64,000 nt of DNA, taken from the NCBI GenBank assembly GCA_038845865.1, contig JAWBQJ010000001.1, positions 62,001 through 126,000 on the forward strand, read 5' to 3'. This stretch comes from Desulfurococcaceae archaeon (GTDB taxonomy: Archaea; Thermoproteota; Thermoprotei_A; Sulfolobales; Desulfurococcaceae). Numbering within the stretch: the stretch's first letter is position 1; each line of letters opens with the position of its first letter. Below, piece after piece: positions 58,428 to 64,000 of the stretch. The position numbers and the translations under genes were made by a program. Under the pieces are notes generated by a model. That model did not search any database. It was not told where the DNA came from and saw only the letters and a list, made by a program, of their open reading frames with translations.

Positions 58428-58459
58428 CGGTGCCCTTAATACCTTACAGTGGTGTAAAC

Positions 58460-58702
58460 ATGGCAAAGTACAAAGTTAAAATAGATCCCAGAGAAAACTG
58501 CATTTCAGACATGGTATGTGTATCGATATGCCCAGACGTCTTCGAAATGAACCCTGATGACAATAAAACGCAGATCACAGCCAAGTACAGAGAGGGAGAA
58601 AACATTGGGGTAGGCGTTGTACCGGAAGACCTGCTCTCCTGCGTGCAAGACGCCGCGAATGCGTGCCCCATTCAAATAATTCACGTCGAGAAAGTGGACT
58701 AG
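58460..58702 (+). CDS. Ferredoxin with Asp-ligated 4Fe-4S cluster
   Basis: An 80-residue single-cluster ferredoxin. Cluster ligands follow the Pyrococcus furiosus pattern: C14, D17, C20 and C69, with Asp in place of the usual second cysteine (CISDMVC). Two further cysteines, C24 and C61, match the disulfide of that protein. The motif SICPDVFE (22-29) is almost identical. Such ferredoxins are electron acceptors for 2-oxoacid and aldehyde oxidoreductases. ATG 58460 was chosen over GTG 58430 because the promoter and GGTG sequence lie between them. It may exchange between 3Fe and 4Fe forms, as known for Asp-ligated relatives. Confidence 0.93.
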   Translation: MAKYKVKIDPRENCISDMVCVSICPDVFEMNPDDNKTQITAKYREGENIGVGVVPEDLLSCVQDAANACPIQIIHVEKVD

Positions 58703-58737
58703 ACGCGGTCTTCACGACCGTGCTTTTTTATCTTAAC

Positions 58738-59976
58738 ATGCCCCCTCTGGGTGTTCCTTTGGACTTCAAATCACTTACCGAGCTGGCCGTTAAGATACTT
58801 TGCGAGAGCGTGAGGTTCAAGACAGTACTTGGAGAAGCATACGAGAACATCGTGGATTACTATAGGGAGATTCTCAAAGACTATGGCATACACGTAACCA
58901 CTCACAGGGTGCCAGATGAGTATGTGAAGAGAAATCTGCCACTGCAATTTAACCCCGATAAGCCTAGATACATATTACTCGCCAGGGTAGGCTATGGTGA
59001 AAAGGTACTACAGTTTAATGGGCACTACGACGTTGTACCCCCTGGAGAAGGGTGGACGAGGCCTCCTTTCGAGCCATCCATAGATAGTGGAAAGCTGTAC
59101 GGTAGGGGGGTGAGTGACATGAAAGGTGGCATAGCCGCAATTCTCGCAACGCTAATACATTTTGCGCAGACACGCGAGCCCGAGATAGTTCTAGAGGCTG
59201 CTCTTGTACCGGATGAGGAGATAGGTGGAGTAACTGGTACAGGGTATCTCGTGAGAGAGCTCGGTAGTAAGCCCAACTGGGTCGTTATAGCCGAGCCCTC
59301 CGGTATAGATGGGGTTTACACTGGACACCGTGGTAATATATGGTTTCTTGTGAAAATTCACGGTAAACAAGCACATGGATCTTCGCCGTGGCTAGGAGAC
59401 AATGCATTTGAAAAAATGCTTGTTTACGCTAAGCTTTTCATAGAGGAGTATAGAAGAATCTTGGAATCTAAAACCAGCAATTACGAGTATGAAGATCCTA
59501 GGGCGCGCAACCCTACAATAACACCTGGTGGAGTCTTAATCTCTCCGGGAGCGGTCAACGTCGTACCCGGAATGTGCGGGTTCAGCGTGGATAGACGGCT
59601 CGTAGTAGAGGAAAACGTGGAAAATGCTATTATGGAAGTGGAACGCCTTCTAGAGGAGCTGAATAAGAGAACGGGTATTCGGGCGGAGGTCGAGGTGCTA
59701 GATGCGTCTAACCCAGCATATACTCGAAAGGATGCCGAGGTGGTACAAGCGCTTGCAGAAGCTATTAACAAAGTTGTGGGGAAAGAGCCGCGGCTAGTAG
59801 TGTGTGCTGGAGGGCTGGACTTAAAGTACTATGCCGAGAAAGGCATACCCGCAATTGCGTATGGACCTGGAATGCCGGGCACAGCCCATAGACCCGATGA
59901 GTATGTTCTAATAGAGCACTTGGAGAGGGTCATAGAAGTTTACATAGAGCTGGTTAAAATACTTGAGAAGAGATGA
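58738..59976 (+). CDS. M20 family metallopeptidase (ArgE/DapE-like)
   Basis: A roughly 412-residue zinc amidohydrolase. The first metal motif is GHYDVVPPGEGW (about 101-112), then GRGVSDMKGG near 123-132 and DEEIGG (160-165), all of family M20. The middle dimerisation domain is present, with HGSSPW near 215-220. Substrates in the family include N-succinyl-diaminopimelate, N-acetylornithine and dipeptides; which one is open here. The longest frame begins at 58663 inside the ferredoxin gene, so I chose ATG 58738. It shares no other genes of amino-acid synthesis. Confidence 0.88.
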   Translation: MPPLGVPLDFKSLTELAVKILCESVRFKTVLGEAYENIVDYYREILKDYGIHVTTHRVPDEYVKRNLPLQFNPDKPRYILLARVGYGEKVLQFNGHYDVVPPGEGWTRPPFEPSIDSGKLYGRGVSDMKGGIAAILATLIHFAQTREPEIVLEAALVPDEEIGGVTGTGYLVRELGSKPNWVVIAEPSGIDGVYTGHRGNIWFLVKIHGKQAHGSSPWLGDNAFEKMLVYAKLFIEEYRRILESKTSNYEYEDPRARNPTITPGGVLISPGAVNVVPGMCGFSVDRRLVVEENVENAIMEVERLLEELNKRTGIRAEVEVLDASNPAYTRKDAEVVQALAEAINKVVGKEPRLVVCAGGLDLKYYAEKGIPAIAYGPGMPGTAHRPDEYVLIEHLERVIEVYIELVKILEKR

Positions 59977-60052: not shown

Positions 60053-61615
60053 GTGCCGGTTAAAGTACTTATTGCTAACAGAGGAGAAGTAGCTATTAGA
60101 ATAGCTAGAACACTTGTGGAAAGCGGCTATATTCCCGTAGGGATATATACAGCTGACGACGCTGATTCCCTGCACAGACGGTTTCTAGTCGATGATACCG
60201 AAGTCTCCAGTTACCTAGATATAAAAGACGTGGTCAACGCCGCAGTAGAGCTCGGTGCCGAAGCCGTTCATCCCGGTTACGGGTTCCTCGGTGAAAACCC
60301 CGAGTTTGCGCACGAGGTTGCTAGAAAAGGTTTAGTATTTATAGGTCCTCCACCAGGTACGATCACCCTCAGCCGCGATAAGTTGGCATCTAAAACGTTT
60401 GCTGAAAAACTAGAGGTGCCGACGCTTCCGTGGGTGGAAGTGCACGAACAGGAGGATGTCATTGAGTTCGCCAAGGTGCACGGATATCCAGTAATAGTTA
60501 AAGCTACTAGTAGTGGGGGTGAGGGAATCGGAGTTGCGTGGAGCGAAAAGGAAGTAGAGTCCGCCATCAAATCGGCTAGATCGGGGGCAGAGAAATCATT
60601 TAAAGATGTGAAGCTCTATGTAGAGCCTTATATCGAGCACGCCAAACACATAGAAGTACAGGTCCTAGGCGACGGCGATAACATAGTACACTTATACGAG
60701 CGAGAGTGTAGCATTAGAAGGAATTTCTACCAAAAGATAATCGAAGAAGCGCCCAGCCCATTCCTTAACGCCGCAGAACGAGGAAGACTTTATGAGTACG
60801 CCTTGAAGTTGGCGAGCGGGCTTAGGTACGTGAACGCTGGAGTAGTAAAATTCGTTTTTGACATCAAGAAAAGAGAGATGTACTTTACAGAAATCGGTAC
60901 AGGACTTCAGGCAGGGCACTCCGCGACCGAGATGATTACACGTATCGACCTCGTCAAAAAGCAGGTAGAAGTGGCACTATACAAAGTACTAGGGCTGAAA
61001 CAACACGATGTAATGCGTGAAGGTCATGCAATAGAGGCGTGCGTATATGCAGAAAACCCATATACGGGTGAGCCGTCGCAAGGTATAGTCAAAAAGTACA
61101 AGGAGCCTGGCGGCCCTGGTGTACGGGTTGATTCCGGCATTGCCGAAGGATCGCGGATTAGCGGCCATAATGACCCATTAATAGCCAAGGTAATTGCATG
61201 GGGTTCTGACAGGTACACATCAGTACAGAGGCTTGAACGGGCACTCAGAGAATACGTAATTGATGGCGTGCCCACAAACATACCATTATTGAGGTATTCG
61301 GTACAGTCGCCAGAATTTATCAGCGCAAATTACACTATAAGGTACTTCGAGATAGGGCTGTCCAACGTATACAGTAAAATGCTTGAAGATTCCCGAGTAC
61401 ATGCTGTAATACTTTCAACTCTCTTCGAGTACGGTGATGCATCCGTTAAGGCGTACTCGAAGAAGGCGAGCTTAATAGAACATGTATTAAAGAGCGAGAA
61501 GGTTTCCTCAATAAAGAGGCGTGCATGGTACTATTACGTTAGCCTGAAGACCGCTCTTGAAAGGTCTTATAGCGGTAGGAAAAGCCGTGTAAGGGAAGAA
61601 AGATCTAAACGCTGA
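60053..61615 (+). CDS. Biotin-carboxylase-like ATP-grasp protein with altered active site
   Basis: A 520-residue homologue of the biotin carboxylase subunit of acyl-CoA and pyruvate carboxylases, with its N-terminal Rossmann part (LIANRGEVAIRIART), HPGYGFLGENPEFA and ATP-grasp domain. Lys150 and Lys228, equivalent to E. coli K159 and K238, remain. However, the positions matching E. coli E276, N290, R292, V295, E296 and R338 are K266, G282, G284, A287, G288 and C330, so the magnesium, bicarbonate and biotin chemistry is lost. The glycine loop SSGGEGIG is also altered. The basic C-terminal tail (about 495-520) is extra. No biotin-carrier or transferase gene is nearby. GTG 60053 follows GAGGAG. 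Some other ligase activity, or a regulatory role, is more likely than carboxylation. Confidence 0.8.
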   Translation: MPVKVLIANRGEVAIRIARTLVESGYIPVGIYTADDADSLHRRFLVDDTEVSSYLDIKDVVNAAVELGAEAVHPGYGFLGENPEFAHEVARKGLVFIGPPPGTITLSRDKLASKTFAEKLEVPTLPWVEVHEQEDVIEFAKVHGYPVIVKATSSGGEGIGVAWSEKEVESAIKSARSGAEKSFKDVKLYVEPYIEHAKHIEVQVLGDGDNIVHLYERECSIRRNFYQKIIEEAPSPFLNAAERGRLYEYALKLASGLRYVNAGVVKFVFDIKKREMYFTEIGTGLQAGHSATEMITRIDLVKKQVEVALYKVLGLKQHDVMREGHAIEACVYAENPYTGEPSQGIVKKYKEPGGPGVRVDSGIAEGSRISGHNDPLIAKVIAWGSDRYTSVQRLERALREYVIDGVPTNIPLLRYSVQSPEFISANYTIRYFEIGLSNVYSKMLEDSRVHAVILSTLFEYGDASVKAYSKKASLIEHVLKSEKVSSIKRRAWYYYVSLKTALERSYSGRKSRVREERSKR

Positions 61616-61731: not shown

Positions 61732-64000
61732 GTGAATGGGTTGAACGGCAAGGAAACCAGGTTCGTGCTCTGGCTAGAAGAGGTCAGAAAGGAAGATACT
61801 CCTCTAGTTGGTGGTAAGAACGCAAATCTAGGAGAAATGCTGGCTGCAGGTATTCCAGTGCCTCCAGGATTCGCCGTAACGGCATACGCATTTAAATACT
61901 TCCTCGAGAAGACGGGGCTTGGCCAGAAAATATATGAAATGTTGAGAAAACTAGACGTTAACAACACAAAGGAGCTCGAAGAAACAACTAGGAAAATTAG
62001 GGAAATGATCCTAGCGCAACCTATGCCTCCCGAGGTCGAGGAGGAGGTTAAAAACCACTACTACGAACTAGCTAAGAGGCTCAACATGGATCCGAATAAC
62101 CTCCGCGTAGCTGTTAGGAGCAGTGCCACAGCCGAGGACCTGCCCGAAGCTAGTTTCGCCGGGCAACAAGACACCTACTTAAACGTTTACGGCGCCGAGA
62201 AGGTAATAGAGCACGTTAAAAGGTGCTGGGCAAGCCTATTCACCGCGAGAGCGACATTCTACAGAGTCGCGCACGGCATACCACATGAGAGAACGCACAT
62301 GAGCGTCACAGTCCAGAAGATGGTCAACAGTAGAGTTGCCGGCGTAATGTTTACACTGCATCCCGTTACAGGGGATGAAAGCGTAATCGTAATCGAAGGT
62401 AGCTGGGGTCTTGGAGAATCAGTTGTAGGAGGCAAAGTAATACCGGACGAATACGTTGTTGAGAGAGGCAGCATGAGGATTGTCGAGAAGAAGATTAATA
62501 AAAAGACTTATATGATCACATTCGACCCCGTTCTAGGGAAGAACATACACTTAAAGTGGGACGAGGAGAAAAAACAGTGGATTGCCGAAGAAGGCGTTGA
62601 AATAAACACCCCACTAGTCAAGATCGCTGAGCCCGAAACGCAGGCTCTAACAGACGACGAAATAAGGAAACTGGCCGAGCTCGGCGAGCTGATATATGTG
62701 CATTACGGCAGGCACATGGACATAGAGTGGGCAATCGATGCCGATCTGCCGTTTCCACAAAACGTATTCATAGTACAAGCAAGGCCCGAAACAGTCTGGA
62801 GCCTCAAGAAAGTGAAAGAAAAGGAAGTGGAGAAGAAATCGGCTGAAACAATCATCGCAGTAACGAGAAAAAGCGTTAAGCTATCAGAAGCTAAAGTGCT
62901 TGCAAAAGGGTTGCCGGCTAGTCCGGGTGTAGCTGCAGGCGTTGCTAGGGTGATCTTCGACCCGAAGAGCCCCGAGGCCATGGAGTTTAAGCCGGGAGAT
63001 ATACTGATAACTAAAATGACCGATCCCGACTGGGTTCCACTGATGAAGAAGGCGGCTGCCATCGTCACGGATGAAGGTGGAATGACAAGTCACGCTGCCA
63101 TCGTTAGCAGAGAGCTCGGCATACCTTGCGTAGTGGGAACGGGTAACGCGACGAAGACCGTTCAAACCGGTATAGATGTCACCGTAGATGGCGGTAAAGG
63201 TATGATTTACGAGGGTGTGGTAGAAGAGCTGGTAAAGCCCAAAGTAGAAGTAGCCGCTCCGGCACCAGGAGTTGTTGCAGCAGTCGGTATCAGCCCAGAG
63301 CAGTTGCTACCATTGTACCCGGTAACGGCCACCAAGATCTACATGAATCTTGGCGAGCCAGACGCCATTGACAGGTATAAGGACCTGCCCTTTGACGGTA
63401 TCGGGCTAATGAGAATAGAGTTCATATTCACTGACTGGATTGGATATCATCCAATGTACTTAATAGACAGCGGGAAGGAAGACTTCTTCGTAAGTAAGCT
63501 GGCAGAAGGCGTTGCCAAAGTAGCTCAGGCGATATACCCAAGACCTATAGTTGTCAGGTTTAGTGACTTTAGAACAAACGAGTTCAGAGGATTAAAGGGA
63601 GGCGAGAAGTACGAGCCGGAAGAGAGGAACCCGATGATCGGCTGGAGAGGAGTATCTAGGTACATACATTCAAAGTATGAACCCGGATTCAGGTTAGAGT
63701 GTAAGGCTATAAGAAAAGTCAGGGAGGAATTCGGGCTAGCTAACGTGTGGGTGATGTTACCATTTGTGAGAACCACTTGGGAGGTCAAGCGCGTTCTAAA
63801 GATCATGGAAGAGGAAGGACTGAGAAGGAGCAAGGACTTCAAGGTGTGGATCATGGCAGAAGTTCCTAGCGTATCGCTATTAGCAGAAGAATTCGCGGAG
63901 CTGGTGGACGGTTTCAGTATCGGAAGCAATGACTTGACGCAACTAGTCCTAGGAGCCGATAGAGATAGTAACATACTAGCCGAGATGGGTTACTTCGATG
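61732..64000 (+). CDS. ppsA: Phosphoenolpyruvate synthase, 3'-truncated by window edge
   Basis: The first about 756 codons of a protein usually about 800 residues long; the end lies outside the window. PEP synthase interconverts pyruvate, ATP and water with PEP, AMP and phosphate, supporting gluconeogenesis. The N-terminal ATP-grasp domain contains [10 protein letters not shown] (27-36) and [19 protein letters not shown] (near 126-144). The phosphohistidine lies in [15 protein letters not shown] near 448-462. The PEP-binding barrel is visible at GLMRIEF near 560-566 and IGSNDLTQL near 730-738. I chose GTG 61732; the nearby TTG 61741 is in frame and also possible. Confidence 0.95.

Follow-up and report, generated by a model that had tools for sequence, protein, structure and literature searches.

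The window, that is, the whole 64,000-nucleotide stretch of DNA analysed here, carries a homologue of biotin carboxylase (BC; 60053..61615, + strand) in which seven ligand residues of the active site are replaced, while the reading frame is open over 520 codons from a GTG start. The explanation preferred here, with slightly better than even confidence, is that the product is a BC pseudoenzyme which would serve, structurally or as a regulator, in a BCCP–carboxyltransferase enzyme running without ATP-dependent CO2 loading. Rewritten sites are also found in six other species, in which the frame is likewise intact.

The window gene and its active site

The gene lies between two conserved neighbours, an M20 peptidase of the ArgE/DapE type on the left (58663..59976, + strand) and, on the right, a gene (61741..64000, + strand) which extends beyond the window end and which we take to belong to the phosphoenolpyruvate synthase (PPS) family. 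The called reading frames of the ferredoxin and the M20 peptidase overlap (window 58430-59976; 58663 vs. 58702), and the true start of the peptidase is probably located further in.

The Pfam domains Biotin_carb_N, CPSase_L_D2, and Biotin_carb_C span residues 4-433 of the protein which, together with the alignment with Escherichia coli AccC, bears out the full-length homology claimed in the earlier note. The closest relatives of solved structure are biotin and propionyl-CoA carboxylases, and the AlphaFold model, with a pLDDT of 87.6 and values exceeding 90 over most of the core, matches E. coli BC 3g8c with a target-normalised TM score of 0.92 and 3rv3 with 0.95. It is the only BC match in its own genome (G000), which has no second BC. 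The protein resembles AccC and the BC domain of PCC-alpha (E. coli AccC, 3g8c) in full-length homology, the three BC domains, the predicted fold, and the partners BCCP and carboxyltransferase. It differs from them in seven replacements (Q233R, E276K, N290G, R292G, V295A, E296G, and R338C, in the numbering of E. coli AccC used throughout) and in its score in the NCBIfam accC equivalog model, which is far below the cut-off (390.7 vs. 626.5 bits).

Q233R changes an ATP-side contact at codon 222 (60716..60718, + strand), a position occupied by Q in all background rows, and E276K, at codon 266 (K266; 60848..60850, + strand), a Mg2+ ligand. Four replacements are situated within the motif EIGTGLQAGH (residues 280-289; 60890..60919, + strand), which stands in place of the canonical E(I/M/V)N(T/A)R(L/I)QVEH: N290, R292, V295, and E296 correspond to G282, G284, A287, and G288, respectively, with E288 and H297 kept. 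R338C concerns a biotin/carboxyphosphate residue at codon 330 (C330; 61040..61042, + strand). The alignment with AccC agrees with every correspondence listed in the earlier note, which omitted Q233R. Its statement that all residues acting on the substrates are changed went too far, however, as K116, K159, G165, G166, E201, H209, E211, K238, E288, Q294, H297, and D382 are kept. The two lysines it described as ATP-binding, K150 and K228 (K159 and K238 in E. coli), are indeed retained, but K238 is presumably a bicarbonate/biotin-side residue of E. coli BC and not an ATP lysine. The Mg2+/ATP set (E276, E288, N290, K116, K159, and E201) is incomplete, with E276K and N290G changed and the rest kept, and the bicarbonate/biotin set R292, E296, and R338 reads G, G, and C. 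The equivalents of E276, E288, E201, Q233, R338, and D382 are described as contacting ligands and as strictly conserved in organisms ranging from bacteria to humans, and that of E296 as the general base (PMC11077971); four of these seven residues are lost in the window protein.

The comparison was based on 75 positions invariant in 30 canonical BCs and E. coli AccC, 20 of which count as ligand contacts in a set drawn up from what is generally known about the structures of E. coli BC. Nine of the 75 are changed in the window protein, 7/20 contacts vs. 2/55 others (Fisher p=0.00097), and in a wider position set the changes comprise 10/23 contacts vs. 21/157 others (p=0.0014). In canonical BCs of the same family, leave-one-out tests revealed no more than one changed invariant position (0-1). 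R292 or R338 is changed in none of 122 background archaeal and bacterial BCs (counted after dropping the duplicate row L177, which is G001 itself), and N290 in one, as N290K.

A still-working biotin carboxylase with a reorganised site, employing other residues for bicarbonate and biotin, would be in line with the retention of the partner genes and BirA and of K116, K159, K238, E201, E288, Q294, H297, and D382. Nevertheless, R292, E296, R338, E276, and N290 are all missing at once, no background BC departs from R292 or R338, and no compensating conserved charges were seen, so that such activity is regarded as highly improbable. Without E276 and N290 for Mg2+, R292 and E296 for bicarbonate, and R338 for biotin chemistry, the protein would be expected neither to activate bicarbonate nor to carboxylate biotin. 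Two options were offered in the earlier note, an ATP-grasp enzyme recruited for a new reaction and a catalytically dead regulator, and the residue pattern appears to fit the second better.

Rewritten copies in related species

A BC match was found in 36 of the 40 genomes of the family, probably the Desulfurococcaceae to judge from named relatives, and 38 orthologues (34 of the family and four of other families) were aligned with E. coli AccC. The closest orthologues, from G002 and G007 of the same genus (62-63% identity), are fully canonical. The site is rewritten in seven species, G000 (the window), G001, G004, and G005 of the same genus, and G034, G026, and G016 of another genus; R292 and R338 are lost and the reading frame is intact in all seven. 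G034 is the complete genome of an isolate, Desulfurococcus mucosus O7/1.

An artefact confined to this genome, be it a chimeric contig or a mistake in sequencing or assembly, would agree with the canonical state of the two closest orthologues and with the origin of several relatives, and of most genus members, from metagenome assemblies. However, the substitutions are clustered in an intact frame, synteny is conserved, and six further genomes, among them the complete one of D. mucosus, have lost these key residues too, and the probability left to this explanation is next to negligible. The earlier note held that a decayed gene or an error would be more likely if close homologues kept E276, R292, and R338 and this copy alone differed. 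The closest orthologues do keep them, but the copy is not alone, and the loss of R292 and R338 in intact frames of six other species means that neither decay nor a sequencing error is the preferred reading.

The rewriting is of three kinds. In the window protein, the Mg2+, bicarbonate, and biotin residues are lost and the glycine-rich loop is partly kept; this particular set of replacements is found in no other species. In G001, 20 of the 75 universal sites are changed, including K116R, K159R, G165D, G166S, K238V, and E276V. The third kind, the NPGL type, comprises the copies of G004, G005, G034, G026, and G016, which share the site KPxxGxWGxG with E(V/L)N(P/M)GL(S/T)PEH (L151:8715-10241, L148:9586-11160, and relatives, with KPxxGxWGxG and NPGL[ST]PEH). 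Its changes are A160P and G165W (both in the glycine loop), R292G, Q294S/T, V295P, and R338N/K/V, while K116, K159, E201, E276, E288, and N290 are kept. The contact-site enrichment recurs in G001 (p=2e-5; wider set p=1e-4) and is not seen in the five NPGL copies, the changes of which are spread more broadly. A scan with the NPGL alignment revealed no copy of this type outside the family among the named relatives checked, and a scan for related loci with the window protein as a query gave no match. In a Thermogladius assembly, G033 (L023/L161), the BC open frame is 727-751 amino acids long, possibly owing to a fusion or a read-through into the neighbouring gene.

In the five-gene species tree, the topology ((G002,G007),(G004,G005)) has a support of 68 and the grouping of G000 with G001 a support of 51. 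Counted with canonical outgroup genomes, the site appears to have been lost at least three times (in the other genus, in G000 and G001, and in G004 and G005), unless canonical residues were regained in G002 and G007; the backbone of the tree is weakly supported. The BC tree built without the active-site columns agrees with the species tree, though with weak support, in placing G004 and G005 with G002 and G007 and not with the other genus. The active-site columns alone, in an AU test run on a reduced taxon set, reject the monophyly of the genus (p=0.0097) and bring the NPGL copies together; the remaining columns of the gene favour the genus. This conflict points to convergence, or to an exchange of the active-site segment, rather than drift as the source of the NPGL site in two lineages.

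An ATP-grasp site rebuilt so that another carboxylate is phosphorylated instead of bicarbonate would account for the specific site shared by the five NPGL relatives, with its ATP/Mg2+ residues kept, and for the grouping of the two NPGL lineages by the active-site columns against the rest of the gene. Those five proteins, whose sequences in part combine a retained ATP/Mg2+ site with a conserved replacement pocket, might be of this sort. The window copy is without the NPGL site, E276 and N290 are also lost in it, its replacements are unshared, and there is no conserved replacement pocket around it, so that the recruitment for a new reaction put forward earlier is not supported in its case. Moreover, BCCP and carboxyltransferase are kept in the NPGL species too, and no independent pathway is indicated. 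On this evidence, a new substrate is considered unlikely.

As regards the retention of the protein, when a canonical gene was evolved neutrally in simulation until 24% of its amino acids had changed, a mean of 7.2 stops arose, and none of 300 runs was stop-free. The model of the D. mucosus protein has a pLDDT of 90.4 and matches 3g8c at a TM score of 0.92. The AlphaFold models, their structural matches, and the simulation indirectly indicate that the fold and the frame are kept by selection, the distances between the species being too great for dN/dS from synonymous sites. A C-terminal motif, KRxAWxY, is nearly invariant in the family, and its five near-invariant positions are kept in 7/7 rewritten copies; in the window protein it reads KRRAWYY (residues 488-494; 61514..61534, + strand) and is part of a helical extension in the predicted model. 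It is a candidate subunit-contact tail.

Partner genes and a genome without them

The earlier note pointed out that neither BCCP nor carboxyltransferase is encoded in the flanking genes. This is true inside the window, but both are found on the contig of the BC gene, ca. 24 kb downstream of it, where one BCCP with a biotinylatable ESMKM motif and one carboxyltransferase are encoded by convergent genes placed end to end (C1:147854-149938). The genome also encodes BirA, which has the motifs KWPNDI and GIGINVNN, and the BC gene is thus not isolated from a biotin system. In genomes of other genera and families (G010, G013, G055, G043, and G046), BC, BCCP, and carboxyltransferase are clustered, which makes the window BC a separated subunit of that system. 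Within the genus, the carboxyltransferase is 82-88% identical vs. 49-63% for BC, and the ESMKM biotinylation motif is present in every rewritten species. A search for correlated change in the carboxyltransferase gave none. That another ATP-grasp protein has taken the place of BC was considered and rejected, as the only other weak match in the genome looks PurT-like by eye.

The carboxyltransferase of G000 matches mmdA best, though below the cut-off (697.7 vs. 998.8 bits, the query being without its N-terminus). Its gene is directly preceded, with a gap of 0-90 bp, by a thiolase gene in every family member examined; in G000 the two genes share a base (thiolase at C1:149938-151128, L145:11939-13129, outside the window). 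This thiolase, which resembles the archaeal acetoacetyl-CoA thiolase, is the sole one in 14/14 of these genomes searched.

In the sister genome G003 (99% complete), BC, carboxyltransferase, an adjacent BCCP, and a BirA-type ligase are all absent, and their joint absence indicates that they form one module in this genus. G003 keeps the M20 and PPS genes, ca. 290 bp apart, with BC missing between them. DNA comparison faintly reveals, at the expected offset in this gap, the opening 63 bases of the BC gene (L227:669-731; 0/300 shuffles with the window query and 0/300 for the sum over five BC starts), while a protein-level search of the gap for a BC relic gave no significant result. Contig C58 of G003 (L310:3912-7997) reads as a cluster of mevalonate kinase, HMG-CoA synthase, thiolase, and DUF35. 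The thiolase of this cluster is a different one, 43% identical, and, together with the thiolase–carboxyltransferase pairing elsewhere, this suggests a link of the biotin module to acetoacetyl-CoA formation. Another genome, G006 (76% complete), is without BC and carboxyltransferase and keeps BirA; these absences may result from incompleteness of the assembly.

The state of G003 would accord with relaxed selection, under which the whole biotin module would be becoming dispensable in the genus, with BC decaying first and the loss complete in G003, where a faint 5' relic remains. The BC branches of G001, G004/G005, and the Desulfurococcus-genus stem, about 2-6 times as long as in the concatenated species tree, also fit such a course. 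On the other hand, all seven rewritten frames are intact, which the neutral simulation never reproduced, and the BC branch of the window, at 0.28, is not unusually long, the neighbouring M20 gene having one of 0.40. Furthermore, the changes in the window protein are at contact positions and not across the fold, and neither the carboxyltransferase nor the biotinylation motif is decaying. Relaxed selection is accordingly a serious possibility, though well short of an even chance.

Possible function and its meaning

In the preferred interpretation, the window protein would fold like BC and be kept under purifying selection as a pseudoenzyme form of the BC subunit of an archaeal biotin-dependent acyl-CoA carboxylase; having lost the Mg2+, bicarbonate, and biotin residues, it would still dock with the carboxyltransferase and the biotinylated carrier. 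Docked, it would act as a structural or regulatory subunit, and the carrier and carboxyltransferase would form a BC-independent transcarboxylase or decarboxylase on acyl-CoAs. Several observations speak against this interpretation: the ATP-site residues K116, K159, E201, and E288 are kept, the contact-site enrichment is confined to the window and G001 and does not extend to the five NPGL copies, and neither OAD_beta nor methylmalonyl-CoA mutase was found in the genus. OAD_beta, the sodium-pump beta subunit, is present in 0/8 genomes of the genus, so that a Na+-pumping biotin decarboxylase, which would need a membrane subunit of this type, was rejected. The mutase route was rejected as well, the mutase being absent from the genus, as already noted for Staphylothermus marinus (PMC2678158). 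A broader variant assumes BC-free carboxyl transfer by BCCP and carboxyltransferase beside the sole thiolase, BC having turned into a scaffold in the window species and G001 or, convergently in two lineages, into the NPGL ATP-grasp with a new carboxylate site; it is rather doubtful.

Three known systems offer partial parallels to the BC pseudoenzyme. In methylmalonyl-CoA decarboxylase (MmdA/MmdC), the carboxyltransferase is of the kind that is matched best here and would work with BCCP without BC; the difference is that here the genus is without the OAD_beta pump subunit and a BC-like subunit is retained. The Propionibacterium-type transcarboxylase consists of 12S, 1.3S, and 5S components and would be alike in combining a carboxyltransferase and a biotin carrier without BC. 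Plant BADC proteins are inactive BCCP homologues in acetyl-CoA carboxylase, and thus catalytically dead homologues of a carboxylase subunit acting in a complex; there, a dead carrier accompanies an active one, whereas here the presumably dead part is BC, present as the only copy. No report of a dead BC subunit was found in the open-licence literature.

BC has been described as the component by which biotin carboxylases differ from transcarboxylases and biotin decarboxylases (PMC3199775). Genes such as that in the window would readily be named biotin carboxylase and then used to infer CO2 fixation, which calls for caution in annotation. The occurrence of a rewritten copy in the cultured D. mucosus means that it can be assayed. 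In this lineage of heat-loving archaea, catalytic residues of the sole BC appear to have been lost on at least three occasions, with the biotin carrier, carboxyltransferase, and biotin ligase retained, which would imply that the rest of the biotin enzyme dispenses with CO2 loading or employs the presumably dead subunit as scaffolding. The natural series from the canonical through the rewritten copy to loss of the module may show how a carboxylase could turn BC-independent.
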